A DNA stretch of 57,809 nucleotides from Bacillus sp. EB01 (lineage in GTDB: Bacteria > Bacillota > Bacilli > Bacillales > Cytobacillaceae). Below, one piece after another: positions 46-53,450 of this stretch. Both the position numbers and the translations under genes were made by a program. Each line of letters opens with the position of its first letter. The first letter of the stretch is position 1. Below the pieces are notes generated by a model that saw nothing but the letters and a program-made list of their open reading frames with translations, searched no databases and was not told where the DNA came from. The stretch lies in assembly GCF_000613125.1 (NCBI RefSeq), contig NZ_HG964497.1, positions 1,956,295-2,014,103 on the forward strand. Direction: 5' to 3'.

Positions 46-340
46 GAGTATTCGGGAGAAAATTGAATTAAACCGAGGGAGATTAATCGGTGTATGGGTA
101 AGAGAGATTAATCCAAGAGAGCCCGTCTCATAGATAATCGGTGTATGGGTAAGAGAGATTAATCCAATAGAGCCCGTCTCACAGATTAATCGGAGTTTGG
201 AGCAAGGAGATTAATCTATGAGACCCGGTCTTATAGATATCAGAGTTCGGGAGAGACGGATTAATCCAATAGAGCCGGTCTAATAGATTAAACAGGGTCC
301 GGGAGAGGTGAAATAATCCAATAGAACCGGTATACAGTCA
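46..340. repeat. Intergenic tandem array, about 51-52 bp unit
   Basis: Five to six diverged copies of a unit built around ATTAATCC-AATAGAGCC-GTCT-ATAGATTAATCGG and a GGGAGAG-like block. Taking the GGG of that block as an anchor, copies lie near 54, 96, 147, 199, 249 and 301, giving steps of about 42, 51, 52, 50 and 52 bp. No reading frame runs through it and no unique spacers separate the units, so it is not a CRISPR array. It lies downstream of the minus-strand gene ending at 364. Confidence 0.8.
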
Positions 341-359
341 AAAGAGCCATTAGCTCTTA
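341..359 (-). terminator. Terminator of the gene at 364-993
   Basis: On the minus strand AAGAGC, TAAT and GGCTCTT form a short hairpin followed by TTTG. It lies immediately after the stop codon of the upstream minus-strand gene. Confidence 0.5.
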
Positions 360-363
360 ATAG

Positions 364-993
364 TTATGCCTCCTGGAGCCACTTGGACCGGATTAGTTCT
401 TTATCGTTTTGGTTCCTTTCTTTGACGCCTCCAAACATCACTTTCCATAAGCCTTCCTTCCACTTGGCGGGGTCTTGTTCGTAGTAGTAGATTCCCTCCA
501 CTGTGGAAATATCGTCAGTGAAGTCGAGATGGATGAGGCTGTTTTTATAAAAGACGAACGTGAAGCCATGTTCGATTGATAACTGATTATCTTTAAAAAA
601 GGATATTGCAAAGTATGCATAGTCATCTTTCACGGTGTCGGTCAGAATCTGGAACGCGGGTTTGCCGATATAGGAATGGATTTCACTGCTGTTTGAAAAA
701 GTGATTGGGCTAAATGAATAGTCTTCCGAGTTGAAAATTTCCCATTTGATCGGTCCATCTTCCTGCAAAGCAAACAGTGTATCGAGTACCGTTTTATAAA
801 TTTGAGGAAATTCTTTCTTTAAAAAGTTTATTGTATCGAGCTCTTTGGTTGATAGAGGGGGCTTGGTCTTACAGTTGCCAACGATTTCAATCTCATCAGT
901 CCCAAACAGGGAAGCCGTGCTGTTAACAGTTAGCCAGCCGTCATATTCTCCATATTCCTCGTAGTATTTAAAACGATCGATTTGATTAACCAT
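364..993 (-). CDS. Hypothetical protein, 209 aa
   Basis: Not recognised with confidence. The reading frame starts with ATG behind a good AGGAGG box (AGGAGGCGAACAA then ATG), which supports it as real. The protein is soluble, acidic and aromatic-rich, with no signal peptide or membrane segment. A segment near residues 47-80 (LSTKELDTINFLKKEFPQIY) is reminiscent of small DUF6985-like proteins, but this is only a resemblance by eye. It stands alone: a hairpin follows the stop, and the next gene upstream is a histidine kinase with its own terminator. Confidence 0.7.
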   Translation of the reverse strand: MVNQIDRFKYYEEYGEYDGWLTVNSTASLFGTDEIEIVGNCKTKPPLSTKELDTINFLKKEFPQIYKTVLDTLFALQEDGPIKWEIFNSEDYSFSPITFSNSSEIHSYIGKPAFQILTDTVKDDYAYFAISFFKDNQLSIEHGFTFVFYKNSLIHLDFTDDISTVEGIYYYEQDPAKWKEGLWKVMFGGVKERNQNDKELIRSKWLQEA

Positions 994-1062
994 TTGTTCG
1001 CCTCCTAAACTTTATAAACTATATTCTATATTTCTACAAAATTGTCCTTCTTTTTTGAAAAT

Positions 1063-1088
1063 GGGCCATCCCAAAAGTCAGGATGGCC
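1063..1088 (-). terminator. Terminator of the histidine kinase at 1099-2475
   Basis: On the minus strand GGCCATCC, a loop of about eight bases and GGGATGGCC form a strong stem followed by CATTTT. It lies about 10 bp past the stop codon of the kinase. Confidence 0.75.
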
Positions 1089-1098
1089 ACAGAAATTT

Positions 1099-2475
1099 CT
1101 ATAGTTCAATAACAAATTCCGTTCCTTGGCCTTGTTCGCTGCTGACAGAGATGGTGCTGCCATGTGCTTCAACAAGTTCTTTGGCGATTGCAAGGCCAAG
1201 GCCGCTGCCGCCGAGGGCGCGGGTTCGGGATTTGTCAACACGGTAAAAGCGTTCAAAGATGCGGGGAACGTCTTCTTTTGGAATGCCCCAGCCGCGGTCG
1301 CGGACTGCAATCCTGACATGCTCGGACTGTCGATTTCCCTCAACTCTTGAAACGGTGACACTTACCATGCTGCCCGGATCGGAGTATTTGCGTGCGTTTT
1401 CGATCAGGTTGATGATGACCTGCTCAAAGCGGATTGGATCGATGCTGACCGAGATATTTTCTGGGCATATGAGATCGAGATTCATTTGCTTGTCGTTGAA
1501 GGCAGGAGCAGCTTTGCTAAAAATGCCCTCAAGATAAGGCTTGAGCTCGACATCCAATTTGTCGATGGAGAAGGTGTTTTCGTCTATCCTTGCCAGGTTG
1601 AACAGTTCTTTGACGAGCTTGGCCAGCTTTCCGGCTTCTTCGGTAATGATGGTAAGGTATTTGTTGCGCTCCGCAGGTTCAAGTTCCTTACGCTGGGCGA
1701 TTTCGGCATAGCCCTTGATATATGTGAGCGGCGTTCTCAATTCATGTGAAATGGACCCAAGGAAATCATTGCGTTCATTTTTTAAAATATCCAATTCATG
1801 TGCAAGGATTTCAATTGACTCCCCAAGTTCACCGACTTCGTCACGGGAGCGCTTGGGCAAGGTGACGGAGAAATCGCCCTTTCTGATTTTCTTGGTTGCT
1901 TCGTTCATTTGGACGAGTGGTTCGGTCAAAAAGCGTGATAGGAAAAAGATGACGCCAATCATGAACAAAAGCGACAAAAGTCCGGCAATCAAGAAGTGCT
2001 GGTTCATCCCAGAGATGAGCTCCTTGATTTTTTCGGTTCCCTGAAACATAAACACCGTTCCATTGGTTCCATCCTGCAAATCTACCGGAGAGGCGGAGGC
2101 GATAAACGGCTTGTCCTTCCAGTCATCTTCAAGAATCATCCCAGGTTCGGGAATGTCGTCAGGACGCTTGGACATGACAGCTTCCATTGCAGGCACTACC
2201 TCGTTTGAGGACATAAGGATGGTACCGTACGAATCAGCCAGGATGACAATTGTATCGGTGCGCGATTCCATCAAAGCAATATGCCGGATCGTTTCCTCGT
2301 GAAAGTTCTCCTCAAGGATTTCGCGGTGGTTGTTGCCGCGGGTTTGCAACGCGCTGAGTTCGTCGTGGACCCGCGAGTGGATGATATTGTTGTGAAGCGC
2401 GACCATCAAAATCGTTTCTAACAGGAAAATGGCCAGGAAAAAGAAAAAACCGATTTTAAAGGAAATTTTATTCAT
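1099..2475 (-). CDS. Membrane sensor histidine kinase (orphan)
   Basis: A 458-residue HAMP-containing sensor kinase. It has an N-terminal membrane segment (about residues 9-28), an extracytoplasmic sensing region of roughly 130 residues, a second membrane segment (about 161-182), a HAMP linker, and an H-box SISHELRTPL with the phospho-accepting His near 244. The ATP-binding region has an N-box (INLIENARKYS) and G-boxes ending GGSGLGLAIAKELVEAHG. I chose the ATG at 2475 because GGAGGG precedes it; the longer frame to 2529 adds a non-conserved leader. No response-regulator gene is adjacent on the same strand, so it looks like an orphan. The nearest regulator, at 3844, already has its own kinase. 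The stimulus cannot be read from the sequence. Confidence 0.93.
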   Translation of the reverse strand: MNKISFKIGFFFFLAIFLLETILMVALHNNIIHSRVHDELSALQTRGNNHREILEENFHEETIRHIALMESRTDTIVILADSYGTILMSSNEVVPAMEAVMSKRPDDIPEPGMILEDDWKDKPFIASASPVDLQDGTNGTVFMFQGTEKIKELISGMNQHFLIAGLLSLLFMIGVIFFLSRFLTEPLVQMNEATKKIRKGDFSVTLPKRSRDEVGELGESIEILAHELDILKNERNDFLGSISHELRTPLTYIKGYAEIAQRKELEPAERNKYLTIITEEAGKLAKLVKELFNLARIDENTFSIDKLDVELKPYLEGIFSKAAPAFNDKQMNLDLICPENISVSIDPIRFEQVIINLIENARKYSDPGSMVSVTVSRVEGNRQSEHVRIAVRDRGWGIPKEDVPRIFERFYRVDKSRTRALGGSGLGLAIAKELVEAHGSTISVSSEQGQGTEFVIEL

Positions 2476-2490
2476 GGGGTACCCTCCGGG

Positions 2491-2610
2491 AGTTAGGCTG
2501 AACGGGTATTTGACCGATAAAAATGACAATTGACCGATAAATTTTAGATTTGGCCGATAAACCAGACGAAACGACCGATATACTACTTAATTTGACCGAT
2601 AAGCATCAGA
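2491..2610. repeat. Short tandem array of GACCGATAA, 20-21 bp period
   Basis: The word GRCCGATA recurs at 2512, 2532, 2552, 2573 and 2594, with steps of 20, 20, 21 and 21 bp and unrelated bases between. It lies just upstream of the kinase start. The same word, inverted as TATCGGTC, forms another 20-bp array at 47031-47078. Confidence 0.85.
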
Positions 2611-2850
2611 ATCGTTCATTTTAGCGAACCAATAGGCGCGGCAATCGAGATCAAAAGTGTAACGCTAGAGCCAGTGCCGGTTCCAATTTAAAAAAGAGTG
2701 CTGTCCAATTATTTGTTAACAGTGTTGTGTAGGTGAATGTGATTCAGCCGTTGGGGCTGCCGATAAAGCTTCATTAAGAGCGCAGGCGCAATGCAAAAAA
2801 AGTTTATCCGGCTTTACTGTAGCTATAGAATACACCATTGGGGGAGGCTT
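2611..2850. other. Intergenic, nothing recognised
   Basis: About 240 bp between the kinase-side repeat array and the minus-strand RNA-like elements. I see no open frame with a ribosome binding site and no clear hairpin or promoter here. Confidence 0.4.
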
Positions 2851-3153
2851 TTGACAAAAAAAGGGCAAAAAAATGGGGTGCCAGCGTCGCCGGCACCCGA
2901 ATTAAGGGAGGTTAATTAAGTAAAGCAGATAGTTCAAACTTGGGTAAAACATATTAAATCTGATTTGCCTGGCAGATTCTCCGCTTCAGCCCGCATAGCC
3001 CCACTATGTTTGCGTCGGGTTCGATTCTGTCGGCATTTCAAAATTGTTAAAAGAGTTTGCTTGAGAAGCTCTGGGCTTCTCTTAACTACACCCTAATAAT
3101 AAGAAATTATTTTGTGGATGGTATGAAGAACTTATGTGGTTTTTGTGAAGAAG
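2851..3153 (-). ncRNA. Candidate small RNA, copy A of a duplicated element
   Basis: The minus strand reads, in order, a conserved 38-nt block (3153-3114), a central hairpin with CATAG-TGGGG-CTATG (3008-2994), a conserved block around 2950-2906 (ACCCAAGTTTGAACTATC), and a terminator GGGTGCC/GGCACCC (2898-2876) running into T-rich sequence. The same order recurs in copy B at 3203-3517. In the central hairpin an A-U pair in copy A is replaced by G-C in copy B around the same TGGGG loop. A second position is U-A against U-G, which pairs only on the minus strand. I cannot assign it to a named RNA family. Confidence 0.55.
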
Positions 3154-3202
3154 AAGGGGCAGTGCCTGTGTGCTTGCTGGCATAGGGGAAACGTCCCTAA
3201 AC

Positions 3203-3517
3203 AACAAAAAAAGGAGGTGCCCACCGTGTGGACACCTTATTATTAAAGGGAGGTTAATTAAGGGTAAAGCTAGATAGTTCAAACTTGGGTAAAACAATTT
3301 AGAGTCATGTTGCGTATTCAAGAATTCTGATTTGCTCTGGAGTGCTTGCCAACTGCTTGCACGGCCCCACCATGCTTGCTGTTTGCCTGCGGTTCCAGAC
3401 AATCCAGGATTTGGTTTTCCTGTTGTGTAGTGTTGGGTTTTATACCCTTGCTACATCTTTATAATAGAAAATAAGAATGTGGATGCTATGAAGAACTTAT
3501 GTGATTTTTGTGAAGAT
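3203..3517 (-). ncRNA. Candidate small RNA, copy B of a duplicated element
   Basis: Tandem paralogue of copy A. The minus strand shows the conserved 38-nt block (3517-3479), a central hairpin CATGG-TGGGG-CCGTG (3374-3360), the conserved ACCCAAGTTTGAACTATC block (about 3296-3248), and a terminator AGGTGTCCAC/GTGGGCACCT (3236-3215) followed by a T-run. An open frame of 106 codons crosses it, but the matching region of copy A has stops and no shared peptide, so I read it as non-coding. Transcription direction is inferred from terminator polarity and the wobble pair. Confidence 0.55.
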
Positions 3518-3735
3518 GACCTCAAAAGCGAAAGCGCCTGGTCAGCGCCGTATGGCCTGGAGTCTCTCCAACTGAGATAAAGGAAACACGAAGAGCGAAA
3601 GCGATTCGATGTTGACTTATCGTAGGGCGAAGGGCGAAGGACACTAGGCGCTAGGCGCTCCTCATTACGCTATCGCGTAATTTCGTGCGATGTAATTTCG
3701 GGGAAGTCCTCCTTGTGGAGCTAGATTAAACCAAA
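3518..3735. repeat. GC-rich intergenic element with AGCGAAAGCG motifs
   Basis: This segment carries AAGCGAAAGCGCC and AGAGCGAAAGCGATTCG, a doubled TAGGCGC word, and the palindrome TTACGCTATCGCGTAA. It codes for nothing obvious and differs sharply from the AT-rich flanks. It resembles a dispersed intergenic element that I have the impression occurs widely in Bacillaceae genomes, but I cannot verify that here. Confidence 0.45.
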
Positions 3736-3843
3736 AAGTGCAAGCGTCGGATTTTTTCAAAAAAGACTTAAAAGAGTTGAAAAACGTATAAAAAGAATTA
3801 ACTCGCAATGGTATGATGGAAGTGTCGGAAGGAGTGTATGATT

Positions 3844-10845: not shown

Positions 10846-11020
10846 CCCCTATATAGATAATTCATTCAAAAAAACCTTCTCTAATCTTTCCTAAGGCAGC
10901 CAAATCAACATAAAGGTCTATTAAGGTTAAAGTAAATTTTTTTATATGCTAGGAATATATTTACAAGTCAGGAAAATAAACATAAACTATAAATAGTAAT
11001 AGTAATTAAGACCTAATTCA
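10846..11020. other. AT-rich leader upstream of the riboswitch
   Basis: This AT-rich segment separates the permease remnant from the c-di-GMP aptamer and must hold the promoter for the adhesin transcript. No single -35/-10 pair is convincing by eye. Confidence 0.4.
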
Positions 11021-11096
11021 ATATAGGGCAAACTACTTGAAAAAGTAGGACGCAAAACTATAGGGGCTAAATCTTTTGACACGCCAGCCAGTTGCA
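11021..11096 (+). promoter_or_regulatory. Class-I c-di-GMP riboswitch (GEMM-I)
   Basis: The aptamer landmarks are all present. GGGCAAAC is followed by the hairpin CTACTT-GAAA-AAGTAG with its GNRA tetraloop (11033-11048), then GGACGCAAAACTATAGGGGC, CTAAAT, and the closing GCCAGCCAGTTGC. The segment ATATAGGGC at 11021-11029 is exactly complementary to 11120-11128, the left arm of the downstream terminator, so aptamer folding and termination are physically linked. It lies 286 bp upstream of the adhesin start. The geometry suggests that ligand binding frees the terminator (an OFF switch), but direction is not proven. Confidence 0.92.
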
Positions 11097-11117
11097 AATC
11101 TACTGAAAGAGATTTCA

Positions 11118-11381: not shown

Positions 11382-14300
11382 ATGAAGAAAAAATGGTTCA
11401 GTATTCAATTTTTCGTTGCAGCACTGTTGCTTTTGTATCAATTTACGCTTCCACTTGGGACAGTGCTGGCAGCAGAAAACGGCAGCATGCTGCCGCCTGC
11501 CAATCTGGCTTATCAAACAATCACACCCGATGATGGAAAGTTGTCATGGAATTCAGTATACGGAGCAACCGGTTATAAAGTATATGAAATCAAGGATGGA
11601 CAGCTTACTTTACTAGGAAGTACAACTGCAATAAGTTACAGCTTAAATGATCTTTCTGAAGGATTCTATAGATATGTTGTTTCCACTGTAACAAGTGAAG
11701 GGGAATCTGGTCCTTCTGCGCCAGTGTCTGTGGAAATTATTTACCCTCAAATGCAGGCGCCTTCATCATTGAGCTCAACAATCCGAAATGGAAATGATAT
11801 TGTACTTAATTGGGGTACATCCCAATATGCGCAAAAGTATAATATATATCAAATTTCTGATTCAGGAGAAAGAACACTATTAACTTCAACCACCGGAACA
11901 ACTTACACTAAAGTAGATGCACCAGAAGGCACTTTTACATACTCTGTCTCTGCCGTTCACTCTCTCTACGGTGAATCCGCGGATACTTCTCCTATCAAAG
12001 CAGAAGTAACTGATCCAGTGATGAGCCAGCCTTCCAGCCTTTCGTTTACAATTACCAATGGAACGGACGTAAATTTAAAATGGCAGGCTGCAGCCTATGC
12101 AACCAGCTATCGGATTTATCAGGATGTGGATGGCCAGCTGGAATTAAAAAAGACGGTTACTGGAACAAACGGCACGCTCACTAATCTTCCTGCCGGAGAG
12201 TATATTTTTAAAGTTTATTCGTTCAGTGACCGATTTGGCGAATCATCAGAAGGAAGCCAGGTCGCTGTAACAGTAGGCTCCATAGTGATGACACCGCCTA
12301 ATAACGCAACGTACAAAATTCAAAACATTAATGATGTTGTTCTTACTTGGGGGTCTGTCCCTTATGCTACCAGGTATAACATTTATGAACTGAAAGACGG
12401 GGAGAAAACTCTAAAGAGTACAACAAGTAGCACAACAATTACCTACCCCATGCTTAAAGGCGGAAATTATCAATATGAGATTTATTCCTTTAGCGACCGT
12501 TTTGGGGAGTCGGAAATAGGCTCTGAGGTGTCGTTTAGCATTGATACTGTTACTATGTCCGCACCAAAAGATGTCACATATAAAATTCAAAATGGAAATG
12601 ACATAGTTTTAAACTGGAGCATTGCGGAATATGCCACAAATTATAAAGTCTATCAACTAATAGACGGAAAAAAAGTATTAAAAACGACAGTATCTAGTCC
12701 GACTGCGACCTTTATTAATGCCCCGGCAGGAGAGAATCAGTACGAAATTTACTCCTTTAGCAGCAGGTTTGGAGAATCAGCAGAAGGAACAAGTACGATA
12801 GTTTCTGTTGTTTATCCAAAGATGGTTCCTCCAGTAAGTGTTGCCGGAACCACTATAAATCCAACAGCACTGACGTTAAACTGGAGTTCTGTTGACTATG
12901 CAACGAGCTATAAAGTTTACGAGATTATTAATGGTCAAAAAATATTGAAGAACAATGTAACAAGCACAACCGTAACCTACAATAATATGAGTCCAGGAAC
13001 TTATAAATATGAGGTTTACGCTTATTCCACCCGCTTTGGCGAATCGCAGCAAGGTAGTCCTGTAGAAGTAACTTTAAGCGGACAAGCACTTCCTGCACCC
13101 GGCAATCCAACTTACAGCATTTCAAATGGAAATGATCTTACATTGAGATGGAGTTCGGTGCAATATGCAACTGGCTATAAAGTTTATCAAATGATTGATG
13201 GAGAACCTGTATTCATTAGGTCGGTTACAGGTACAAGTACAACCTTAACAAATCAGCCGGAAGGGGAATTCACTTTCGTTGTTAAGGCTTATTCCACCCT
13301 TTTAGGAGAGTCTACGAATGAAGCAGAATTAAATGGTTCCATCGTTTACCCTGTTATGGCAAAACCGCTGAATTTCGTATACAGCATCTCTAATGGAAAT
13401 GATGTAACGTTAAGATGGAACGCAGTAACTTATGCGAACAGTTATAAGATTTATCGGATTATTGATGGCGAAAAGGTTTTTGAAAGAACTGTGAATGGCA
13501 CTTCTTCTGTGTTTGCCAATATCCCTGAAGGAGATTATCAATATATTGTCCATTCCTACAGTGACCGCTTTGGCGAGTCAACAGAAGCCAGCGCGCTGCA
13601 GTTTAACTTAACCTGGCCAATCATGCAGGCTCCGGCAAATCTGGCAAAAACCATCTCTAACGGCAACGACATAGTCCTATCATGGAATTCTTCCGCATAC
13701 GCAAAGGAATATAAAGTCTATCAAATTGTCGAAGGAGATAAAGTATTAGTAAAGACAGTAACTGGAACTTCGGTTTCATTTACAAATATGCCTGAAGGGG
13801 ATTATCAGTATGTTGTCCATTCCTATAGCGACCGGTTTGGTGAATCTCCAGTAGGCAGTGCGTTGGAGTTTAACTTAACCTGGCCAATCATGCAGGCACC
13901 TGCCAATTTGGCAAAAACTTTTCCTAACGGCAATGACATAGTCTTATCATGGAATTCTTCCACATACGCAAAAGAATATAAAGTCTATCAGATTGTCGGT
14001 GGGGATAAAGTATTAGTAAAGACAACAACTGGAAAGTCAGTTTCATTTACGAATATGCCTGAAGGGGATTATCAGTATATTGTCCATTCCTACAGTGACC
14101 GTTTTGGCGAGTCTCCGGTAGGCAGCCCATTGGAGTTTAATTTAACCTGGCCAATCATGCAGGCACCCGCCAATTTGGCTAAAACGATTCAAAATGGCAA
14201 TGATATCTCCCTTACGTGGAACCCATCAGCGTTTACAAAGGAGTATAAAATTTATCAAATAGAAAATGGAGAGAAGATTTTAAAAAGGACAATAATAGGT

Positions 14301-16727
14301 ACCTCAACTTCATTTACGAATATGCCAGAAGGTGATTACCAGTATATTGTCCATTCCTATAGTGACCGTTTTGGGGAATCTCCAGTCGGCAGCCCATTGG
14401 ACTTTAATCTAACCTGGCCCATCATGCAGGCTCCAACGGTCAATGGCAGTGTCTTTAATGTAAACAATATCACCCTTTCTTGGAAAGCTGTCCCGTTTGC
14501 AACTGAATATCGGGTTTATAAGGCGAATGGCGGCAGTAAAGAATTAATATATAAGGGAACCCAATTGTCTTCTAGTATTTATAACTTGGCTGAGGATACT
14601 CATTCATTTGAAGTGACGGCATACAGCAGCCGTTTTGGTGAATCGGCACCATCCAGCCGTGTTGACCGGACGATTATCTATCCTATTATGGAATCCCCAA
14701 CCGCTTCTTTAAGGCTATTAAGTCAAACAAGCGCACGGATTTCATGGGATTTTGTTACGTATGCGAATGGGTACAACATTTACGAAATCATTGATGGAAA
14801 ACCAGTACTTTTGGTTAAAAACGTGAATAATCTTTCTTACGACATTCAAAACCTTTCGTACGCAAATCATGAATATTATGTAACATCTTACAGTAACTCA
14901 TTTGGAGAATCTCAACCGTCCGCTACGGTTTTGGCAAAATTAATAATCGATACAGAGGCACCGGAAACAAAAATTAATGCGCCATCACAATGGGTGAATC
15001 AAAATCAGCTTCTTACTCTTCAGGCAACAGATAATGAAACGGGAGTAGCCAACACGTTCTACTCTATAAATGACGGCCCTCTTCAAAAAGGAACTTCTAT
15101 CCTAATTGATCAAGAGGGTATCAATAAAATTCAGTTCAATTCAATCGATAAGGTCGGTAACCTGGAAGAAGTTAAAACAGTGTTTGTAAAAGTTGATAAA
15201 TCTGCCCCGGTAACTGAAATTAATACAATACCTGTATATGCGCAGTCGTTTACAGCGCAATTAACCAGAAATGATTCACTAAGCGGAGCAGCAAAAACAT
15301 ATTATTCTATTAATGGTTCGGAATTTGCAGAGGGGACTTCCCTTACAATAGAAAAAGAAGGGAAGAACATGATTTCCTATTACTCTGTTGATGCAGCCGG
15401 GAATATGGAAGAAATAAAAACAAAAGAAGTAAATATCGATAAAACGTCTCCTGTGACTTCAGCAAACCTACCGGATACATGGGTAAATGGTAATGTAACA
15501 GTAACCTTATCAGCTCAAGATGAGGCAAGCGGAGTTGCAAAAACGTATTATTCTATCAACGGTTCGGAGTATACAGAAGGAAGTTCCTTTACTGTGGAGA
15601 AAGAAGGAATCAACGAAATCTCCTACTATTCAGTTGATACTGTCGGAAACAAGGAAGAAGCAATAATTAAACAAGTTAAAATTGACAAAACAACGCCTGC
15701 AACTTCATCGGACGCACCTGAATCCTGGGTAAACGAAGACGTAACAGTAACACTAACAACAGAAGATGAATTAAGCGGAGTTGCAAAAACGTATTATTCT
15801 ATCAACGGTTCGGAGTATACTGAAGGAACTTCCTTTACTGTGGAGGAAGAAGGAATCAACGAAATCTCCTATTACTCAGTTGATGCCGCCGGAAACAAGG
15901 AAGATGCAATAACAAAACAGATTAAAATTGACAAAACCACACCTGTAACTGCCTCTGACATGCCTGAAGTCTGGGTAAACGAAGACGTATCAGTAACACT
16001 TACAACAGAAGATGAATTAAGCGGAGCTGTAAAAACGTATTATTCAATCAACGGTTCGGAGTATACCGAAGGAACTTCCTTTACTGTGGAGCAAGAAGGG
16101 ATCAATGAAATCTCCTACTACTCAGTTGATGCAGTCGGAAACACTGAAGAAGTAAAAACAAAAGCAATTAAGATTGATAAAACAGTTCCAACCGTTTCCG
16201 TTTTATTGGACGGGGAATATCAGCTTGGCACAAGTTTTACATTGGATTATGATGCTTATGATTACCAATCAAGGATAGCTCAAGAAGTTGTCACACTGAA
16301 TGGTCAAAATTATAAGTACGGTGATGTAATTACATTAGATCAGCCTGGTGAATATAAGCTTAAAGTTCAGGTAACAGATGGTTCAGGCTTATCTGCTGTG
16401 GTGGAAAAAACATTCACGGTCTATATTGAGGTTGAACTTGAGGTATTGCCGAAAGTGATTAAAGGCAACAAGGGAATCTTTACGGTTAAAGCTTCACTAC
16501 CGACGACATATCAATCATCCTCATTTAATGTTTCATCTGTAACATTAAACGGAGTTTCCGCTGTAGCGGATAATAAAGGTTTAGAAAAACAAGCCGAAAA
16601 AGGTCATTTCAAATTCAATCGTGAAGAATTTGATTGGGTGACAGGACAAGTTAACCTTACCTTCCGTGGATATCTTAATAATGGTTTTTTAGTGATTGGT
16701 AAAGCTAGCGTAGAAGTCAAGAAATAA
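11382..16727 (+). CDS. Giant secreted Fn3/Ig-like repeat protein (putative adhesin)
   Basis: A 1781-residue exported protein. Residues 1-31 are a signal peptide (KKKW, hydrophobic core, AxA-type cleavage near VLAAE). Thirteen Fn3-like repeats of about 89 residues follow (about 36-1190). Each has a W in the second strand, a YKVYxI-type strand and the signature RFGES. After them come about five Ig-like repeats of about 82 residues (KTYYSINGSEYTEGTSF, YYSVDAAGN, IDKT), one more divergent Ig-like unit, and a C-terminal domain of about 100 residues. No LPxTG, SLH or LysM anchor is seen, so retention at the surface is unexplained. Repeats 9-11 are nearly identical in DNA as well. The c-di-GMP riboswitch upstream implies control by that messenger; a riboswitch-controlled collagen adhesion protein is known in B. 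thuringiensis. The adhesin role is inferred. Confidence 0.88.
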   Translation: MKKKWFSIQFFVAALLLLYQFTLPLGTVLAAENGSMLPPANLAYQTITPDDGKLSWNSVYGATGYKVYEIKDGQLTLLGSTTAISYSLNDLSEGFYRYVVSTVTSEGESGPSAPVSVEIIYPQMQAPSSLSSTIRNGNDIVLNWGTSQYAQKYNIYQISDSGERTLLTSTTGTTYTKVDAPEGTFTYSVSAVHSLYGESADTSPIKAEVTDPVMSQPSSLSFTITNGTDVNLKWQAAAYATSYRIYQDVDGQLELKKTVTGTNGTLTNLPAGEYIFKVYSFSDRFGESSEGSQVAVTVGSIVMTPPNNATYKIQNINDVVLTWGSVPYATRYNIYELKDGEKTLKSTTSSTTITYPMLKGGNYQYEIYSFSDRFGESEIGSEVSFSIDTVTMSAPKDVTYKIQNGNDIVLNWSIAEYATNYKVYQLIDGKKVLKTTVSSPTATFINAPAGENQYEIYSFSSRFGESAEGTSTIVSVVYPKMVPPVSVAGTTINPTALTLNWSSVDYATSYKVYEIINGQKILKNNVTSTTVTYNNMSPGTYKYEVYAYSTRFGESQQGSPVEVTLSGQALPAPGNPTYSISNGNDLTLRWSSVQYATGYKVYQMIDGEPVFIRSVTGTSTTLTNQPEGEFTFVVKAYSTLLGESTNEAELNGSIVYPVMAKPLNFVYSISNGNDVTLRWNAVTYANSYKIYRIIDGEKVFERTVNGTSSVFANIPEGDYQYIVHSYSDRFGESTEASALQFNLTWPIMQAPANLAKTISNGNDIVLSWNSSAYAKEYKVYQIVEGDKVLVKTVTGTSVSFTNMPEGDYQYVVHSYSDRFGESPVGSALEFNLTWPIMQAPANLAKTFPNGNDIVLSWNSSTYAKEYKVYQIVGGDKVLVKTTTGKSVSFTNMPEGDYQYIVHSYSDRFGESPVGSPLEFNLTWPIMQAPANLAKTIQNGNDISLTWNPSAFTKEYKIYQIENGEKILKRTIIGTSTSFTNMPEGDYQYIVHSYSDRFGESPVGSPLDFNLTWPIMQAPTVNGSVFNVNNITLSWKAVPFATEYRVYKANGGSKELIYKGTQLSSSIYNLAEDTHSFEVTAYSSRFGESAPSSRVDRTIIYPIMESPTASLRLLSQTSARISWDFVTYANGYNIYEIIDGKPVLLVKNVNNLSYDIQNLSYANHEYYVTSYSNSFGESQPSATVLAKLIIDTEAPETKINAPSQWVNQNQLLTLQATDNETGVANTFYSINDGPLQKGTSILIDQEGINKIQFNSIDKVGNLEEVKTVFVKVDKSAPVTEINTIPVYAQSFTAQLTRNDSLSGAAKTYYSINGSEFAEGTSLTIEKEGKNMISYYSVDAAGNMEEIKTKEVNIDKTSPVTSANLPDTWVNGNVTVTLSAQDEASGVAKTYYSINGSEYTEGSSFTVEKEGINEISYYSVDTVGNKEEAIIKQVKIDKTTPATSSDAPESWVNEDVTVTLTTEDELSGVAKTYYSINGSEYTEGTSFTVEEEGINEISYYSVDAAGNKEDAITKQIKIDKTTPVTASDMPEVWVNEDVSVTLTTEDELSGAVKTYYSINGSEYTEGTSFTVEQEGINEISYYSVDAVGNTEEVKTKAIKIDKTVPTVSVLLDGEYQLGTSFTLDYDAYDYQSRIAQEVVTLNGQNYKYGDVITLDQPGEYKLKVQVTDGSGLSAVVEKTFTVYIEVELEVLPKVIKGNKGIFTVKASLPTTYQSSSFNVSSVTLNGVSAVADNKGLEKQAEKGHFKFNREEFDWVTGQVNLTFRGYLNNGFLVIGKASVEVKK
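13620..14420 (+). repeat. Three near-identical 267-bp repeats within the adhesin gene
   Basis: Units starting at 13620, 13887 and 14154 are each exactly 267 bp (89 codons), begin with IMQAP and end with FNLTWP. They are far more alike than the other Fn3 units, so they arose by recent in-frame duplication and can expand or contract by recombination. Confidence 0.9.
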
Positions 16728-19904: not shown

Positions 19905-19962
19905 AATCAATTTTGTCGAATTACCAAAATTTTTGTCGAATTACCAATATTTTTGACGAAGA
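19905..19962. repeat. 20-bp tandem array TTTTGTCGAATTACCAATAT
   Basis: TTTTGTCGAA or TTTTGACGAA occurs at 19911, 19931 and 19951, exactly 20 bp apart, with ATTACCAA in between. It lies 60-115 bp upstream of the permease start on the minus strand, so it could also be operator DNA. Confidence 0.8.
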
Positions 19963-26312: not shown

Positions 26313-26496
26313 TGTAGCAGTGACCTCCATAAGTGCTTGAAAATAACTAACCTATAGTAACATAGAAACAAGAACAATTGCTGACTTTATACAAAAGAAC
26401 GGGCTGTTATGAAATGGAATTACATAATAGCGGCTTTTGTAACAAGATGGCTTGTGTTCTTTGAGTCCCAATCTCCTCAATAAGCCCGATTAAAAA

Positions 26497-26770
26497 ATGT
26501 TTTTGAAAAGGAATTTCCGAGTACAATTTGAAACTGTGGGGATAGCGAAATGTCCTTGAAAAGGGGTTTCGAGTACAATTTAGGGTTGCTGGTATAGTGA
26601 AATGTCCTTGAAAAGAGGTTTCGAGTACAATTTGAGGTTGCCGGGATAGCGAAATGTCCTTGAAAAGAGGTTTCGAGTACAATTTAGGGTTGCCGGGATA
26701 TCGAAATGTCCTTGAAAAGAGGTTTCGAGTACAATTTGATGTTGCCAGGATAGGGAAATGTCCTTGAAAA
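26497..26770. repeat. 52-bp tandem array, six copies
   Basis: The unit reads ATGTCCTTGAAAAGAGG, TTTCGAGTACAATTT, then G-GTTGCCGGGATAGCGAA. Copies begin at 26497 (diverged), 26550, 26602, 26654, 26706 and 26758 (truncated), with an exact 52-bp step between the last five. Two open frames across it only reflect the repeat. It fills the gap between the DMT gene and the cre-linked operon. Confidence 0.93.
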
Positions 26771-26947
26771 AAACTCCTGCAGGTTTATTATGATGAAACT
26801 CTTTAAAGCTCCGGACTGGGCACATACCAAGAAAATTAAATAATACTTAAAGAGTCCCTATTACAATTGGGGGCTTTTTATTTTTCTTAAATAATTTTCT
26901 GCCAACGAGAAAAAACAAGAAATTACCAAAAGCGACTAGAGAAAGTG

Positions 26948-30802: not shown

Positions 30803-30876
30803 ATTATTATCAAAAAGAATATCTTTTCTTTGAGAACTGTCTAGCTATATAAAAGTTTTTGGCATGGAATAGAGTT

Positions 30877-30995
30877 TGTCCAGTATATGTTGAAAATTGT
30901 CCTGTAAAGTTTGGGAAATGTCCTGAATCTCAAAAAAGTTGTCTCGATTCCATAAAAAGTTGTCCTGATCCGTAATCAGGCTGGTCTAGACAGTA
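30877..30995. repeat. 21-bp tandem array TGTCCTG...AAAAAGT
   Basis: TGTCC-like words occur at 30877, 30898, 30919, 30940 and 30961 (and weakly at 30982), each exactly 21 bp apart, with an A-rich half between them. The array lies between the amidase operon and the FabF paralogue. Confidence 0.88.
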
Positions 30996-37439: not shown

Positions 37440-37640
37440 GTATAAATAGGCGGAAGATTTCCGCTTATATAGTAAATCGTCTTAAAAATAGCCCAAATAG
37501 ACGGAGAAATTCCGTCTATTGACTTTAAAAACGCTTATTAAGGGGATTGTACGTTACATAAGGGAAATATTTCTGCTTATTTCACCCGATAAAACCCTCA
37601 TGCGGTAGTATAGGCGGAAAATCTCCGCTTATTTTTTATC
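37440..37640. repeat. Array of GCGGAAATTTCCGC-like palindromes, about 51-52 bp apart
   Basis: Four palindromic units (ATAGGCGGAAGATTTCCGCTT, ATAGACGGAGAAATTCCGTC and two diverged forms) begin at 37446, 37497, 37558 and 37610, with steps of 51, 61 and 52 bp. Each could form a small hairpin or be a two-fold protein site. They lie between a plus-strand and a minus-strand gene, both ending here. Confidence 0.8.
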
Positions 37641-46849: not shown

Positions 46850-46935
46850 TTACTAGTAACTTTCCACTAGCAATACTCGGAGACTTACTAGGTAAATCGT
46901 AAAAAAGCTAGTAGTACTCGCAGACTAACCAGGTA
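46850..46935. repeat. CTAG-centred array, 20-21 bp period
   Basis: CTAG words at 46853, 46867, 46888 and 46908, and CCAG at 46929, give steps of 14, 21, 20 and 21 bp. ACTCGGAGACT and ACTCGCAGACT between them form a higher repeat of about 41 bp. Intergenic, between convergent genes. Confidence 0.7.
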
Positions 46936-47024
46936 ATCCGCAGGGAAATACTGGAGAATCGGGAGTTTTGAGCATTATAGGGGAATGGAGGAGGTTTTAA
47001 TTGTTCTTTTAATAGAACGATTTT

Positions 47025-47080
47025 CTGGTTTATCGGTCTAAAAGAAAATTTATCGGTCCAGGAAGTATTTTATCGGTCAA
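47025..47080. repeat. TTTATCGGTC array, 20-bp period
   Basis: TATCGGTC occurs at 47031, 47051 and 47071, exactly 20 bp apart. It is the reverse complement of the GACCGATA word that forms the array at 2512-2603, 44 kb away. It lies about 75 bp downstream of a minus-strand SDR gene. Confidence 0.85.
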
Positions 47081-48832: not shown

Positions 48833-48834
48833 TG

Positions 48835-49314
48835 TCATGATATCTGATTGGACTGTTGGGATCGTGTTTCCCACGCCTCCATCAACTGTTTATGAAACTC
48901 CTTCGGCTGTGAAATCCATGTCCATTGAATAGAATGGTCGGGAGATGGCAGCTTTTTGCCATGCCTTAATCGAATGGTTTCATGTTGGTAATAGTGCGTA
49001 TAGATGACTGTGGAACGATAGCCGTCCCCCGAACGCCGCAACTGGATATCCTCGATTTCATCCCAAAGAATTTTATTTCCATTGTAATCAACAACCACGC
49101 CTTCATCATCCCAAAAGAAACCAGGCCCGTTGATTCGTTTTCGAAGCAAGAATAGGCCGATGCCCAGGAAGAAAAGGCCCATTACCACTAAAGCCGCAAA
49201 ACTGGATAGATTGGAGCGCAGTCCCTTCAGATCGAGTAGAGGCAGCAGCAAAATTCCTACCCCAATTAGAATGAGTACGATAATTTTAGATAGGGCTGTT
49301 TTATACGGCTTCAT
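48835..49314 (-). CDS. Small membrane protein with PH-like tail, unknown
   Basis: Not recognised beyond its layout. Two membrane helices (about residues 10-27 and 39-58) are followed by a soluble C-terminal part with the pattern FFWDDEGVVVDYNGNKILWDEIEDIQL. Such a turn-rich beta segment is typical of small bacterial PH-like or STM3941-like membrane proteins. No catalytic motif is seen. The start ATG has GGAGATGAAGCA upstream, a moderate site. It lies downstream of tupC on the same strand but 112 bp away across a short repeat, so it is probably independent. Confidence 0.7.
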   Translation of the reverse strand: MKPYKTALSKIIVLILIGVGILLLPLLDLKGLRSNLSSFAALVVMGLFFLGIGLFLLRKRINGPGFFWDDEGVVVDYNGNKILWDEIEDIQLRRSGDGYRSTVIYTHYYQHETIRLRHGKKLPSPDHSIQWTWISQPKEFHKQLMEAWETRSQQSNQIS

Positions 49315-49364
49315 TGCTTCATCTCCATTTAAAAAGGTTCATATCAGGCACCCAAATGTCACTG

Positions 49365-49425
49365 GTTGGGCGTCTATTTGGAATCCACTTCGCCGTCTAT
49401 TTGGCATCCGTTCGCCAGACGAAAT
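49365..49425. repeat. Short array of CGTCTATTTGG words
   Basis: CGTCTATTTGG is at 49371 and 49394, and the related GCCAGACG follows about 21 bp later, giving steps of 23 and about 21 bp. It lies just past the tupC stop codon. Confidence 0.6.
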
Positions 49426-49426
49426 C

Positions 49427-50161
49427 TTAAACCTTGTATTTCCTCCATACTTCCAGAAACGATGCGCTTTCCTCATTCGGTTGTTCAATTACATCAGGAG
49501 TCGGCCCGGTCTGCTTGATTTCTCCGTTTACCATAATGGCAAGCCTGGATGTCAGGAATTTCACTTCCATAAGGTCGTGGCTGACATACATCGCTGTCGT
49601 TCCGGAGTCCGCAAAGATTTCACGGAAATCCTCCATCAGCTTGATTTTTGTCGGAAAGTCGAGCGCAGAGAATGGCTCGTCCAAAAACAAAATTTCCGGC
49701 TCGATAATCATCGCACGCGCAATCGATACACGCTGTGCTTCGCCGCCAGACAGGAACCGGGCATTTTTTCGGGCCAGGTGGCTGATCTGGAAACGGTCCA
49801 TCCATACTTCAACGCGCTCGCTAATTTCACGGCGGTCAAGCTTTCTAAGCTTTAGCCCAACTGCAATATTTTGAAAAACAGTCGTGTCCAAAAGCAGGGG
49901 CTGCTGGAGGGCGATTGAAAATTTCCGCCTTAAATCAAGCGGTGCGCCACTGGAGGGGACAGCCCCGCCGCGGTAAAAAATCGTCCCGGATGCAGGCGCT
50001 TCAAGGAAGGAGGCGATTTTCAAAAACGTACTCTTGCCGGCACCATTCGGTCCCATGACACCTAGAAAATCCCCGCTGTAAATCGTAAACTCGGGAATAT
50101 TCAACACCTTTCTTTGGCCAAAATACTGTTCAATATTATGGAATTGCAAGTATGGAATCAT
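49427..50161 (-). CDS. tupC: Tungstate ABC transporter ATP-binding protein TupC
   Basis: A 244-residue ABC ATPase that powers oxyanion import. It has Walker A GPNGAGKST, a Q-loop (ALQQPLLLD), the signature LSGGEAQR, Walker B EILFLDEPFSALD and the H-loop VSHD. The pairing with a TupB-type permease and, upstream, a TupA-type binding protein identifies tungstate as the likely substrate; molybdate is the alternative. It overlaps the permease gene by 4 bp, so translation is coupled. The start has GCAAAGGAAG upstream within the permease gene. Confidence 0.93.
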   Translation of the reverse strand: MIPYLQFHNIEQYFGQRKVLNIPEFTIYSGDFLGVMGPNGAGKSTFLKIASFLEAPASGTIFYRGGAVPSSGAPLDLRRKFSIALQQPLLLDTTVFQNIAVGLKLRKLDRREISERVEVWMDRFQISHLARKNARFLSGGEAQRVSIARAMIIEPEILFLDEPFSALDFPTKIKLMEDFREIFADSGTTAMYVSHDLMEVKFLTSRLAIMVNGEIKQTGPTPDVIEQPNEESASFLEVWRKYKV

Positions 50162-50856
50162 AGCGGACGCTTCCTTTGCTGCAGGGTTGTCAGGAAAAAC
50201 GTAATCAAGAATGCGAGCGTCATGAGAATGAATGACAAGGCGATGGCGACATCGAAGTTCCCTTTGCCGACCTCCATCACGATAGTGGTTGTCAGAATCC
50301 GGGTGTCACCCTTAATATTGCCTCCGACCATCATCGCCGCGCCGACTTCGGAAATGACGCGCCCAAAGCCCGCCATGACAGCGGCCAGGATGGCGATGCG
50401 GGTTTCTTTTATCAGCAGCCAGAGTGATTGCATCCTTGTTGCGCCAAGTGCTTTGATTTGTAAAATAAGCTTCGGGTCAAGCCCCTGGAATGCAGATGCC
50501 GTAAGTCCGGTCACAATCGGCAGCGAAACGAGGATTTGTGCCAAGACGATTGCAGTCGGCGAATAGAGCAGTGACAAGTCTCCGAGCGGGCCCGAGCGCC
50601 ATAGGAGCATCGTAATCGTCAAACCGGCAACGACGGGTGGTATCCCCATCCCGATGTTGATGAAAACCATGACAATGCGCCGTCCCCGGAATTGATTGAG
50701 CCCAATCAGCATCCCGAGCGGAATCCCGACCAGCGTACTGAATAGAATTGCCCGGAAGCAGACCTTCAGCGTCAACAGCGTAATCCCGACTATTTCACTG
50801 TCTCCCGACAAAAGCATCTCAATCGCTTTCTGAAAACCATCAACAATCAAATCCAT
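50158..50856 (-). CDS. tupB: Tungstate ABC transporter permease TupB
   Basis: A 232-residue integral membrane permease with about five or six helices. The inner-membrane EAA-like loop is the segment ALGATRMQSLWLLIKETRIAIL, where it contacts TupC. The sequence GIPPVVAGLTITMLLWRSGPLG and EVGAAMMVGGNIKG fit the TupB/WtpB oxyanion group. It overlaps tupC by 4 bp. It is separated from tupA by about 640 bp of non-coding sequence containing a tandem array, whereas tupA and tupB are usually adjacent. Confidence 0.93.
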   Translation of the reverse strand: MDLIVDGFQKAIEMLLSGDSEIVGITLLTLKVCFRAILFSTLVGIPLGMLIGLNQFRGRRIVMVFINIGMGIPPVVAGLTITMLLWRSGPLGDLSLLYSPTAIVLAQILVSLPIVTGLTASAFQGLDPKLILQIKALGATRMQSLWLLIKETRIAILAAVMAGFGRVISEVGAAMMVGGNIKGDTRILTTTIVMEVGKGNFDVAIALSFILMTLAFLITFFLTTLQQRKRPL

Positions 50857-51240
50857 CGCAGCCAGGCCTTTCTGGGTAATTTGGTTAATTAGGGACGGTT
50901 CTTATCACGTTTTGGTGAACCGTCGTTCGTGTTGTCAAGACCTTGGACAGATTGGTGTATCAGTTTGTCCATAAGGAAGGAGAATTGGAGTCTAAAACAA
51001 CCTATAATAGATACGTTCTCAAATACTATTAAACTATAAAAAAATACTTAAAGGAAGTTACCCCTTGAATTTCAGGGAGACTAAGGGAAGCCCCGTAAAT
51101 ATAGGGATACCCCCGTTCTTGGCGAAAACGAGGGCTAGTTAACGGAAAGGATCTTTATATAGAAACAGAATAGGGGTTTATTCTGGTCTACATTCATTTA
51201 ATAAAGGTTAGAGCCCACGATCTTGGTTTGGCAGACTGGA
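50857..51240. other. Gap between tupB and tupA, first part
   Basis: Non-coding. A hairpin GACGGTTC/GAACCGTC spans 50893-50924 just upstream of tupB and includes the dispersed word GGTGAACCGT. CCCCGTTCTTGGCGAAAACG followed by AGGG at about 51112-51134 can form another stem. Either could end or start a transcript within the operon. No gene is seen. Confidence 0.5.
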
Positions 51241-51480
51241 ATCATCTCTGCCCCCTGGGAGAGAATGGGAACTTCCAGAACATGCATTTTTCTAGACAAA
51301 ACCTAGGCCTGTGAAAGCAGAAACTTCGAGTAAATCGCTTTTTCTAGACAAAACCTAGCCTTGCGAGAGCAGAAACTTCGAGTAAACCGCTTTTTCTAGA
51401 CAAAACTCTATCTCGGTAGATCAGAAACTTCTAGAAAGCCCCTTTTTATGGAAGTTACCTACTCCATAAGCAGGAATTTC
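51241..51480. repeat. 52-bp tandem array between tupB and tupA
   Basis: Units starting TCTAGACAAAACCTAG occur at 51291, 51343 and 51395, each exactly 52 bp apart, with AGAAACTTCGAGTAAACCGC in the second half. Diverged copies flank them on both sides. The unit sequence is unrelated to the 52-bp array at 26497 even though the period is identical. Confidence 0.92.
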
Positions 51481-51497
51481 GTTTCTTCCCAGTCTTC

Positions 51498-52343
51498 TTA
51501 TTCGGTGTACTTGAAGAATAGGGATTGGCCGTATTCTTCTTTGCCGAATTCTTCTATTGTGTTTTGGGTCTCGTCGGCAATCATGAATTCGACGAATTGC
51601 TTGGCGCCTTCAGAGTTGATTTTGTTATTCTTTTCAGGATTGACTTGCATGACGTGGTAAATGTTTTGTAAGTCCTTGTCGCCTTCAACAATGATGGCAA
51701 CATCCTTCAGATTCTTTTCCTGCGCCAGGAATGTAGCGCGGTCAGTCAGGGTGTAGCCTTGTTTTTCAGATGCGATTTGCAAGGTAGGTCCCATGCCCTG
51801 GCCAGTCGAGACGTAGTTGTCGCCAGCAGGTGTGATGCCAAGACTACCCCAGATGCCAAGCTCTTTTTTATGTGTGCCGGAGTCATCTCCGCGCGATACG
51901 AAAATCGCTTTTGAATCAAACAGCTTTTTGAATGCATCAGCAGTTGGCAGGCCTTTTACACCAGCAGGATCGCTCTTCGGGCCGACCACGATGAAGTCGT
52001 TGTACATAACACGCTTGTAGTTGGTAACATCGCCAGCATCAACGAGTTCTTGCTCGGAAGCAGGGGCGTGTGTCAAAAGCACATCAGCCTCGCCTTGTTT
52101 GCCCATTTCAAGCGCATGGCCAGTTCCGACAGCAATTGTTTTTACCTTTGCATTATACTTTTCTTCAAAAATCGGCAGCAGCTCGTCAAGAAGCCCGCTG
52201 TCCTGGGTGCTGGTTGTTGTAGCGAGAATAAGCTCCTTGGGCTCGTCCTTGTTGGCACCTGCTGTTTTATCCGAACTGCCGCATGCGGCTAGGAAGAGAA
52301 GAAAGAGCGCCATGATGATGTGTAAATAACGATTTTTAAGCAT
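51498..52343 (-). CDS. tupA: Tungstate-binding lipoprotein TupA
   Basis: A 281-residue extracellular solute-binding lipoprotein. The signal peptide ends in the lipobox LAAC (Cys21). The mature protein has the diagnostic TTTSTQDSGLL oxyanion-binding start, GTGHALEMGKQGEADVLLTHAP, the FIVVGPKSDPAGV strand and SRGDDSGTHKKE, all hallmarks of tungstate-binding TupA. Its start overlaps the end of the upstream regulator gene by 8 bp, so the regulator and tupA are coupled. It is separated from the permease gene by a repeat-filled gap. Confidence 0.94.
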   Translation of the reverse strand: MLKNRYLHIIMALFLLFLAACGSSDKTAGANKDEPKELILATTTSTQDSGLLDELLPIFEEKYNAKVKTIAVGTGHALEMGKQGEADVLLTHAPASEQELVDAGDVTNYKRVMYNDFIVVGPKSDPAGVKGLPTADAFKKLFDSKAIFVSRGDDSGTHKKELGIWGSLGITPAGDNYVSTGQGMGPTLQIASEKQGYTLTDRATFLAQEKNLKDVAIIVEGDKDLQNIYHVMQVNPEKNNKINSEGAKQFVEFMIADETQNTIEEFGKEEYGQSLFFKYTE

Positions 52344-53283
52344 TTATTGATTCCTCCTGGTGTTTCGTTTGGAATACAATGCTGCCGAGTTCTTCGATGT
52401 AATAGCCCTCCAGATTGGAAAGGCTGTTTTTAAATTCTTCGCTTTGTAAAAAAGCAACGAGTTTCGTAAGCGTTTCGCGGTTTTCTCCGGTCCACCGGAA
52501 TACAAGGTCGAACTGCTCCTTGGCAACCGGGATAAAGTCAAGGCCAAGGTGGCTTGCGGCCGAGCGGATTCCAAACACCACATCGGCAGAACCACGGGCA
52601 ATATGGGAGGCAGTCGACAGGTGCGTCCATTCCTCCGTATCGTAGCCGTTGATGTCCGACGGACTGATTCCTGCCGCCATCAGCTTTGAATCGAGCAGAA
52701 ACCGTGTGCCTGAGCCTTTTTGCCGATTGATGAACTTGATATCCTTGCGGGTCAGATCTTTAAAATCATGAATCTCTTTCGGATTTCCTTTTGCAACGAT
52801 AAAGCCCTGTTCCCGCGCCGCAAAGCGCATGACGCTGATCGTTTCATAGACGAACAGCTGGTGTATGAACGGCAGGTTATACTCGTGGGACATCGGGTCG
52901 AGCAAGTGCATTGCGGCAATGTCTGCCTGGCCGCGGTACAGCATCATCAGGCCCTCAAGGCTGCCGATATAGGTAGGCTGGACCTGGACGCGGAGCGTAG
53001 TTGATGCTTCTTTGACCAGATGCTCTACGAGAAAGTCATGGCTTCCGGCAAGCCGAGTCTGGATGTGCTGAGTTACGGCTGGCTGGGCCGTTTCCTGGAC
53101 TGGCTTTCGGGCTGGCGCCTTCATACTTTCCTTATACCGCTCCATCTCTTCATGTTCAATCCGCATTTTATTACCGATCTTAAACGCCTGCAGTTCGCCG
53201 CGCTTGATGAGCTCGTACACAGTGTGCTTCGATATTTGAAAAATTTGAGCCACTTCATCCGGCGTATACGCTTTTATCTCCAC
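52336..53283 (-). CDS. Excisionase-type HTH regulator with a periplasmic-binding-protein-like domain
   Basis: A 315-residue cytosolic regulator. Residues 1-52 are a MerR/excisionase-type helix-turn-helix (TPDEVAQIFQISKHTVYELIKRG, FKIGNKMRI). A proline-rich linker (about 53-75) leads to a substrate-binding domain of the oxyanion/PBP fold (about 80-310) with AGSHDFLVEHL, GQADIAAMHLLDP, NRQKGSGTRFLLD and GSADVVFGIRSAA. It has no signal peptide, so it senses ligand inside the cell. Position and overlap with tupA indicate that it controls tungstate (or molybdate) uptake according to internal oxyanion, replacing a ModE-type regulator. GGAGGCTTCTTCC precedes the ATG. Confidence 0.9.
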   Translation of the reverse strand: MEIKAYTPDEVAQIFQISKHTVYELIKRGELQAFKIGNKMRIEHEEMERYKESMKAPARKPVQETAQPAVTQHIQTRLAGSHDFLVEHLVKEASTTLRVQVQPTYIGSLEGLMMLYRGQADIAAMHLLDPMSHEYNLPFIHQLFVYETISVMRFAAREQGFIVAKGNPKEIHDFKDLTRKDIKFINRQKGSGTRFLLDSKLMAAGISPSDINGYDTEEWTHLSTASHIARGSADVVFGIRSAASHLGLDFIPVAKEQFDLVFRWTGENRETLTKLVAFLQSEEFKNSLSNLEGYYIEELGSIVFQTKHQEESINA

Positions 53284-53380
53284 GGAAGAAGCCTCCTTTA
53301 ATAGATAAGTTTTTTGTTCATAACATTTGGCCGTTTAATATGATAGTTTCATAGTAAACGATTTCAAAATAAAGCGGAAG

Positions 53381-53450
53381 TGAGTTTTGTTACATTTTGT
53401 TGACTTTTATTTAGTTTCGTTAAGTTTTGTTTGGTTTTGTTGGGTTTCTT
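53381..53450. repeat. Seven T-tracts phased at exactly 10 bp
   Basis: Consecutive decamers TGAGTTTTGT, TACATTTTGT, TGACTTTTAT, TTAGTTTCGT, TAAGTTTTGT, TTGGTTTTGT and TGGGTTTCTT place a T-tract (A-tract on the other strand) every 10 bp. Such phasing gives strong intrinsic DNA curvature. It is 98-167 bp upstream of the tup regulator start. Confidence 0.85.

Follow-up and report, generated by a model that had tools for sequence, protein, structure and literature searches.

Intergenic DNA of Bacillus sp. EB01 (order Bacillales) carries arrays of tandemly repeated units that belong to several distinct classes, among which the arrays with a 52-bp unit are a real, widespread and strictly spaced architecture, similar in habit to repetitive extragenic palindromes (REPs). 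The arrays were noticed in a stretch of 57,809 nucleotides, hereafter the window, which covers bases 1956295-2014103 of the 5.28 Mb contig NZ_HG964497.1. Two fixed pitches, of about 20.5 and 52 bp, are favoured, and not helical phase generally. The organisation of the repeats suggests, at somewhat less than even confidence, that the 52-bp arrays are tandem sites for a putative dimeric DNA-binding protein, located mostly downstream of genes; the spacing may be set by such a putative protein or by a mobile element.

Period statistics were obtained from 60 evenly placed 20-kb stretches which, together with the window, make up 1.258 Mb, or 24% of the genome. A simple script predicted 1164 genes in this sample (77% coding) and delimited 802 intergenic segments, whose self-similarity at each lag was compared with five dinucleotide shuffles and with about 280 kb of coding DNA. 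Similarity at lag 52 was detected in 52 of the 802 segments, against a shuffled mean of 7.8 and a coding count of 4; the corresponding values were 35, 6.8 and 3 for lag 104, 32, 7.8 and 15 for lag 51, 27, 8.4 and 20 for lag 21, 23, 8.0 and 5 for lag 20, and 22, 7.4 and 7 for lag 41. Because coding DNA has codon-multiple lags of its own (21, 42 and 51), the contrast is clean only at lags such as 20, 52 and 104. Tandem Repeats Finder identified 94 arrays in the intergenic part of the sample, with a period of 52 bp in 31, 51 bp in four, 53 bp in two, 20 bp in ten and 21 bp in six, and 43 arrays in the coding part, five with a period of 21 bp and none with a period of 20 or 51-53 bp. In eight other genomes, sampled over 1.2 Mb in total, elevated counts were observed at lags 52 (33 segments), 21 (32), 42 (30), 104 (28) and 20 (25), and also at 32 (19) and 60 (18), against a shuffled mean of 8.2; two of these genomes, G098 (200 kb sampled) and G008 (100 kb), yielded no 52-bp arrays. 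The convergence of sequence-unlike intergenic arrays on about 20-21 and 52 bp, proposed in a first-pass annotation of the window, thus holds genome-wide and in relatives when set against shuffled DNA, and the tandem-repeat run on the sample and the comparison of intergenic lags with coding and shuffled DNA, checks of the kind that annotation had named, gave peaks at 20-21 and 52 bp and not a flat distribution.

The broader idea that helical phase governs the periods was borne out in part. The favoured periods do lie near whole turns, with a mean excess over the median at whole-turn lags of 7.81 segments in this genome and 6.43 in the eight others, against 0.32 and -1.23 at half-turn lags. However, the whole-turn excess vanishes (-1.78 and 0.11 segments) when lags 20-21, 41-42, 51-53, 62-63 and 103-105 are left out, and the remaining whole turns at lags 31, 73, 83 and 94 of this genome (14, 10, 3 and 8 segments; median 10) show no excess. 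Seven arrays of about 2-3 copies (L011, L012, L034, L052, L057, L065 and L066) belong to a 37-bp family (TGTCYCTGCGATGATAATTC...), the period of which, about 3.5 turns, is half a turn out of phase; five of the six placeable arrays of this family are located between convergent genes. CTAG-type REP arrays have pitches of 117 and 130 bp.

The 52-bp class is represented in the sample by 40 arrays, grouped by blastn into 11 clusters (of 10, 7, 6, 6, 3, 2 and 2 arrays, and four singletons). The units are arranged head to tail in up to 18 copies, whole units repeating with 69-97% matches in the arrays listed. At least five of the 11 clusters (0, 1, 2, 3 and 5) have a common unit, in which two inverted half-sites are separated by about 5 bp and which recurs every 52 bp. 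The half-sites, each facing its inverse, are AAATGTNNCCAATA in family F0, AAATGTCCTTGAAA in F1, GATTAATCYANGAGA in F2, ATTCGTCTAGTAAA in F3 and AAATGTCATTCAT in F5; the loop is 5 nt in clusters 0-3, and the arms of cluster 5 are consistent with the same length. In the remaining clusters a regular dyad was not found by the same method, although the arms in cluster 7 are separated by 9 bp. When the genomes of 84,980 species were scanned for pairs of F0 dyads at a distance of 37-67 bp, 74 stretches were returned, mainly from Neobacillus, Mesobacillus, Cytobacillus and Bacillus sp. Among the 198 dyad distances, which are not independent within an array, 197 fall within 51-53 bp (52 bp in 166 cases, 53 bp in 22 and 51 bp in nine), the exception being a Prevotella match with a distance of 45 bp. 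Across 68 F0 arrays the distances are constant, while the spacer columns mostly carry less than 0.5 bit. Dyad half-sites at a constant pitch with free spacers are the pattern that a tandem array of dimer sites would be predicted to have.

Alignment of the dyads suggested a frame common to different families, with GTC at positions -12 to -10 and GAC at +10 to +12, or GTC(N19)GAC. The test set for this frame consisted of 138 arrays in 23 clusters, 93 of the arrays being F0, as 74 loci had been selected for F0. The exact frame is present in five of the 23 clusters, while any other spacing is present in one at most; when five of the six letters are required, it is found in 11 clusters, compared with a mean of 3.9 and a maximum of 8 at that spacing in 300 shuffles. 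A held-out set was taken from new stretches of four genomes and contained seven arrays with a period of 49-54 or 104 bp, five of which (L252, L255, L258, L259 and L267) carry the exact frame; the shuffled mean was 0.08, and none of 2000 shuffles reached this number. A joint scan of each of the two data sets ranked GTC..GAC top at a span of 25 and a distance of 52, with 8 pairs in one set and 28 in the other (mean cell 0.02 and 0.05, respectively), and further triplet pairs also peak at distance 52 with different spans. That different arrays share this frame suggests a single recognised layout underlying the 52-bp class.

Three such frames in a 52-bp register, with one mismatch at most, were used as a signature, so that an array of n units gives n-2 matches. 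The signature was detected in 71 of 299 genomes of the order, representing 33 of 117 genera, with up to 591 matches per genome (G057), while the reversed-pattern control was matched in 13 of the 299 genomes and no more than 33 times in any of them. Examples include M. subterraneus DSM 13966 (140 matches), M. selenatarsenatis (187), C. oceanisediminis (543), N. mesonae (131), N. niacini (71) and N. rhizophilus (104). The sequences inside the frame vary widely among genomes, e.g. GTCCTTCAT, GTCCGAAGG, GTCACATAGA, GTCATCGA and GTCCAGTAGA. In a phylum-wide draw of 398 genomes, nine of them from the order, four matched: three within those nine and one among the 389 others, where the match is a 13-bp repeat. 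Three genomes of one genus, g85 (G201, G281 and G306), match the reversed pattern, CAG(N19)CTG at 52 bp, 8, 14 and 11 times and the forward pattern not at all, which is perhaps another frame at the same 52-bp pitch.

Comparison of six orthologous F1 array regions between genomes G000 and G040, which represent two species, revealed changes at 47 of 556 half-site positions against 69 of 431 positions in spacers and loops (p = 3e-4); in the flanks, including coding DNA, 229 of 2382 positions differ. One orthologous F1 array of this pair of genomes is shorter by exactly one 52-bp unit. In 12 of 13 homologous named locus pairs, as judged by eye from block coordinates, an array occupies the corresponding spot, L149/L164 being the exception, and some arrays keep their position between species at about 79% identity; these array-bearing loci were selected as such and give no retention rate. 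Five more distant pairs have similar spacers in four cases (0.51-0.66), two of them comparing Mesobacillus with Cytobacillus, and dissimilar ones in L155/L178 (0.18). Across genera the outer half-sites of F0 have an identity of 0.23-0.45 and the spacers of 0.18-0.66, the core being fixed by the search itself. The arrays are also unevenly distributed relative to genes. The neighbours of 39 arrays are convergent in 15 cases (p = 2e-4), co-directional in 20 and divergent in four (p = 0.02), in tests picked post hoc against a background of intergenic regions of at least 250 bp; 15 of the 20 co-directional arrays, inspected by eye, lie closer to the stop codon of the upstream gene. In relatives, 19 of 72 arrays are convergent and 6 divergent, against 62 and 99 of 404 background regions.

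The 20-21-bp arrays consist of direct repeats of cores of about 10 bp. The core GACCGATAA forms 14 arrays with 43 sites, in which the distance between neighbours deviates by no more than 1.6 bp from a multiple of 20.5 bp in 28 of 29 cases; its columns carry 1.5-2.0 bits, and those of the spacer mostly less than 0.6. In a permissive search 9 of 17 distances for TTGTCCTGA and 16 of 40 for GAATTAATT fell near such multiples, a less clear phasing, so that clear phasing holds for GACCGATAA only. This class has no position bias (3 of 20 arrays convergent, 6 of 20 divergent). It may represent direct two-turn arrays of single half-sites, and its link with the 52-bp class is a conjecture. Locus L105 of G098, the genome whose 200-kb sample lacks 52-bp arrays, contains at 12816-13564 a 41-bp array of 18 copies with ATCAGCCAAA twice per unit. 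In G120, 40- and 60-bp arrays (L267 and L266) carry the core TATAGCGA at intervals of about 20 bp.

We tentatively prefer the reading of the 52-bp arrays as tandem dimer sites, which is ranked above inherited selfish repeats. Each 52-bp unit, a dyad most often framed by GTC(N19)GAC and followed by a spacer that drifts in sequence and is constant in length, would be bound by a protein dimer, and adjacent dimers would touch, which would fix the pitch at 52 bp, or five turns; differing half-site families would reflect differing or evolving specificities. The arrays would gain and lose whole units while keeping their place between species; lying mostly downstream of genes, they might, when bound, label the ends of genes or help to structure the chromosome. 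From the arrangement of the repeats we infer the protein, its dimeric state, the contact and the function. The first-pass annotation offered, as one of two causes, a DNA-bending or nucleoid function that selects face-of-helix spacing; protein binding to one face of the helix is the possible reading preferred here. A bolder version, which is to be considered unlikely, would extend it to an order-wide system, in which a putative diversifying family of DNA-binding proteins reads GTC-framed dyads at exactly five turns and builds evenly spaced nucleoprotein arrays at the ends of genes along the whole chromosome; the two-turn direct arrays would then be another mode of this system or of a sister one.

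Several observations weigh against the dimer-site reading. Twelve of the 23 clusters have fewer than five of the six frame letters, shuffles reach 12 clusters at some spacing when five letters are required, and other triplets at other spacings reach 12-15. The frame is absent from two of the seven held-out arrays (L249 and L265) and was looked for without success in the F3 array of the window (51266-51461). Among 823 proteins encoded within 3 kb of 201 arrays no recurrent partner candidate was recognised; the larger protein groups there resemble, by eye, transporters, kinases and response regulators. Gene conversion could be an alternative cause of the slower change of half-sites, and neighbouring dimers would not have to touch if the pitch came down from a single ancestor. 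Finally, arm pairing in F1 is a mixed result, with four offsets above chance (z 3.4-6.0) and two below, which leaves room for an RNA stem.

The closest competitor, rather unlikely in our estimation, is that the arrays are REP-like selfish or relic repeats, an ancestral 52-bp GTC..GAC unit having spread and diversified, with its pitch inherited through unequal recombination and its survival downstream of genes reflecting least harm. The change of copy number by a whole unit in one orthologous pair, the spacers common to copies within an array, the scarcity between divergent genes and the non-recurrence of adjacent genes are all in line with this, the shared frame is compatible with common descent, and the location resembles that reported for REPs in PMC3733652. 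However, in selfish repeats one would not expect a spacer that drifts in sequence to be held in length within about 1 bp across many genera, nor half-sites to change more slowly than spacers, nor some arrays to stay in place between species as diverged as those noted above. A reading as RNA hairpins arrayed within 3' untranslated regions, with a stem of 10-14 bp and a 5-nt loop in each unit acting in termination, stability or protein titration, appears quite improbable. Dyads with 5-nt loops and the downstream position fit it, pairing exceeds expectation at offsets 4, 5, 8 and 11 of F1 and offsets 13 and 14 of F0, whose overall count is 346 paired positions against 308.5 expected, and in eight GTCAYWGA-type units some of the arm differences would be, by eye, G-U wobbles on one strand. 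Yet the 42 F1 units have 461 paired positions overall where 455.4 are expected and fall below chance at offsets 7 and 10, an RNA stem has no need of an exact 52-bp pitch, and the arrays of the window have no Rfam match at gathering score, on which ground a known RNA family was also rejected. The other cause named in the first-pass annotation, slippage or templated duplication under a helical-phase constraint, would produce repeats at any whole number of turns and is hardly credible: favoured periods do occur near 2, 4, 5, 6 and 10 turns, but the other whole turns have no excess, the 37-bp family exists, and the common GTC(N19)GAC frame, left unexplained by slippage, points to one recognised architecture instead.

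In some Bacillus relatives the 52-bp arrays rank with the most abundant repeats, and a fixed pitch over many unlike sequences, in which spacing is maintained more than sequence, is unusual. If the arrays are protein-driven, they would imply an as yet unnamed nucleoid or boundary factor of high abundance; if selfish, a REP-like class with a strict ruler.

Within the window, intergenic arrays are present near the positions and with the periods listed in the first-pass annotation. Three belong to the 52-bp class. The F2 array (GATTAATC-type half-sites, 51-52 bp, no strand assigned) occupies 76-334 and has ATC(N19)GAT frames at 111, 162, 214 and 264. The F1 array at 26495-26773 (forward strand), in which the half-site, N5 and its inverse follow one another, has GTC(N19)TAC frames, a single base away from GTC..GAC, at 26552, 26604, 26656 and 26708. 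The F3 array mentioned above (TTTTTCTAGAC-type) has no assigned strand. Four palindromes (GGCGGAA..TTCCGCC-like) at 37446-37634, also without assigned strand, follow each other at a loose pitch of about 51, 61 and 52 bp and were not called by Tandem Repeats Finder. Among the shorter direct arrays, five units with the core GACCGATAA and non-conserved spacers, 20-21 bp apart, lie on the forward strand at 2508-2603, and three 20-bp units with the same core on the reverse strand at 47027-47080. Unit sequences do differ between most arrays, as had been claimed, but these two are a single family on opposite strands. A 21-bp array with the core TTGTCC(T)GA (30876-30975) and a weak pair of 22-23-bp units assigned to no family (49371-49416) are on the forward strand. 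The 20-bp array of 2.5 units of TTTTGTCGAATTACC at 19911-19960 (forward strand) contains TTGTCGAA twice and TTGACGAA once, which are like Spo0A boxes (TGNCGAA); it is possibly a regulator array rather than a repeat element. A 10-bp period was observed at 53381-53447, and four perfect copies of CTACCCCTA are located at the window end (57772-57809). The sole gathering-score match in the Rfam scan of the window, a c-di-GMP-I riboswitch (11017-11099), precedes an open frame of 1781 aa (11382-16727) which contains coding repeats of 267 and 246 bp.

The remaining window array, at 46854-46945 (no strand assigned), is a CTAG-type REP element with a pitch of about 41 bp and stands outside the 52-bp class. 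Its initial part, 46854-46919, matches (best E 7e-10) the 130-bp arrays that precede the RAYT genes at loci L210, L214 and L217, and the element resembles RAYT-linked REPs. RAYT was rejected as the agent of the 52-bp arrays on two grounds: no 52-bp array was present within 1.2 kb on each side of 11 examined loci out of 20 fetched PF01797 loci, and the array-rich G057 has one PF01797 match. CTAG words occur at seven of the 11 loci and lone half-site-like matches at four (L210, L214, L216 and L217), and in L218 a 52-bp array is found 4 kb from a RAYT gene. A phage origin was likewise rejected, the signature having matched one stretch in viral_contigs.

Searches of the open-licence PubMed Central literature turned up no description of the 52-bp arrays. 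Among known systems, clustered regularly interspaced short palindromic repeats (CRISPR) are alike in having evenly spaced, partly palindromic repeats, but were rejected because the spacers here are copies of each other within an array and whole 52-bp units repeat. Plasmid iterons and the centromere repeats parC/tubC are protein-binding repeats with whole-turn spacing, of about 20 bp in some, whereas the arrays described here comprise hundreds of chromosomal units in many sequence families. Bacterial interspersed mosaic elements (BIMEs) are dispersed, short, intergenic palindromes with several families per genome. Two repeat families of Bacillus halodurans, Bhal-1 (74 nt) and Bhal-2 (76 nt), are given in PMC2267715. 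The known elements closest in kind are the REPs with GTAG or CGTC tags treated in PMC3733652 (Di Nocera, De Gregorio and Rocco 2013). According to that paper, GTAG REPs associated with RAYT are dispersed short intergenic palindromes with several families per genome, as are the repeats considered here; they differ in that RAYT genes here are flanked, where seen, by CTAG-type repeats and not by 52-bp arrays. CGTC REPs are reported there from five phyla, Firmicutes not among them, and the word Firmicutes is absent from the main text. As short intergenic palindromes with loops of 4-5 nt the 52-bp units agree with these elements, with which they also have in common a CGTC/TGTC tag, a location mostly between unidirectional or convergent genes and the failure to find a flanking transposase. 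In the same paper CGTC REPs are mostly head-to-head dimers and rarely clustered, whereas the units surveyed here, solo units lying outside the survey, form head-to-tail 52-bp arrays. A CCA tail was not seen by eye in 21 consensus rows. The tag of the CGTC REPs, as described there, is unpaired and stands at one end, with a CCA-fitting tail, while the dyad of the 52-bp arrays is closed by GTC at one end and by GAC at the other.

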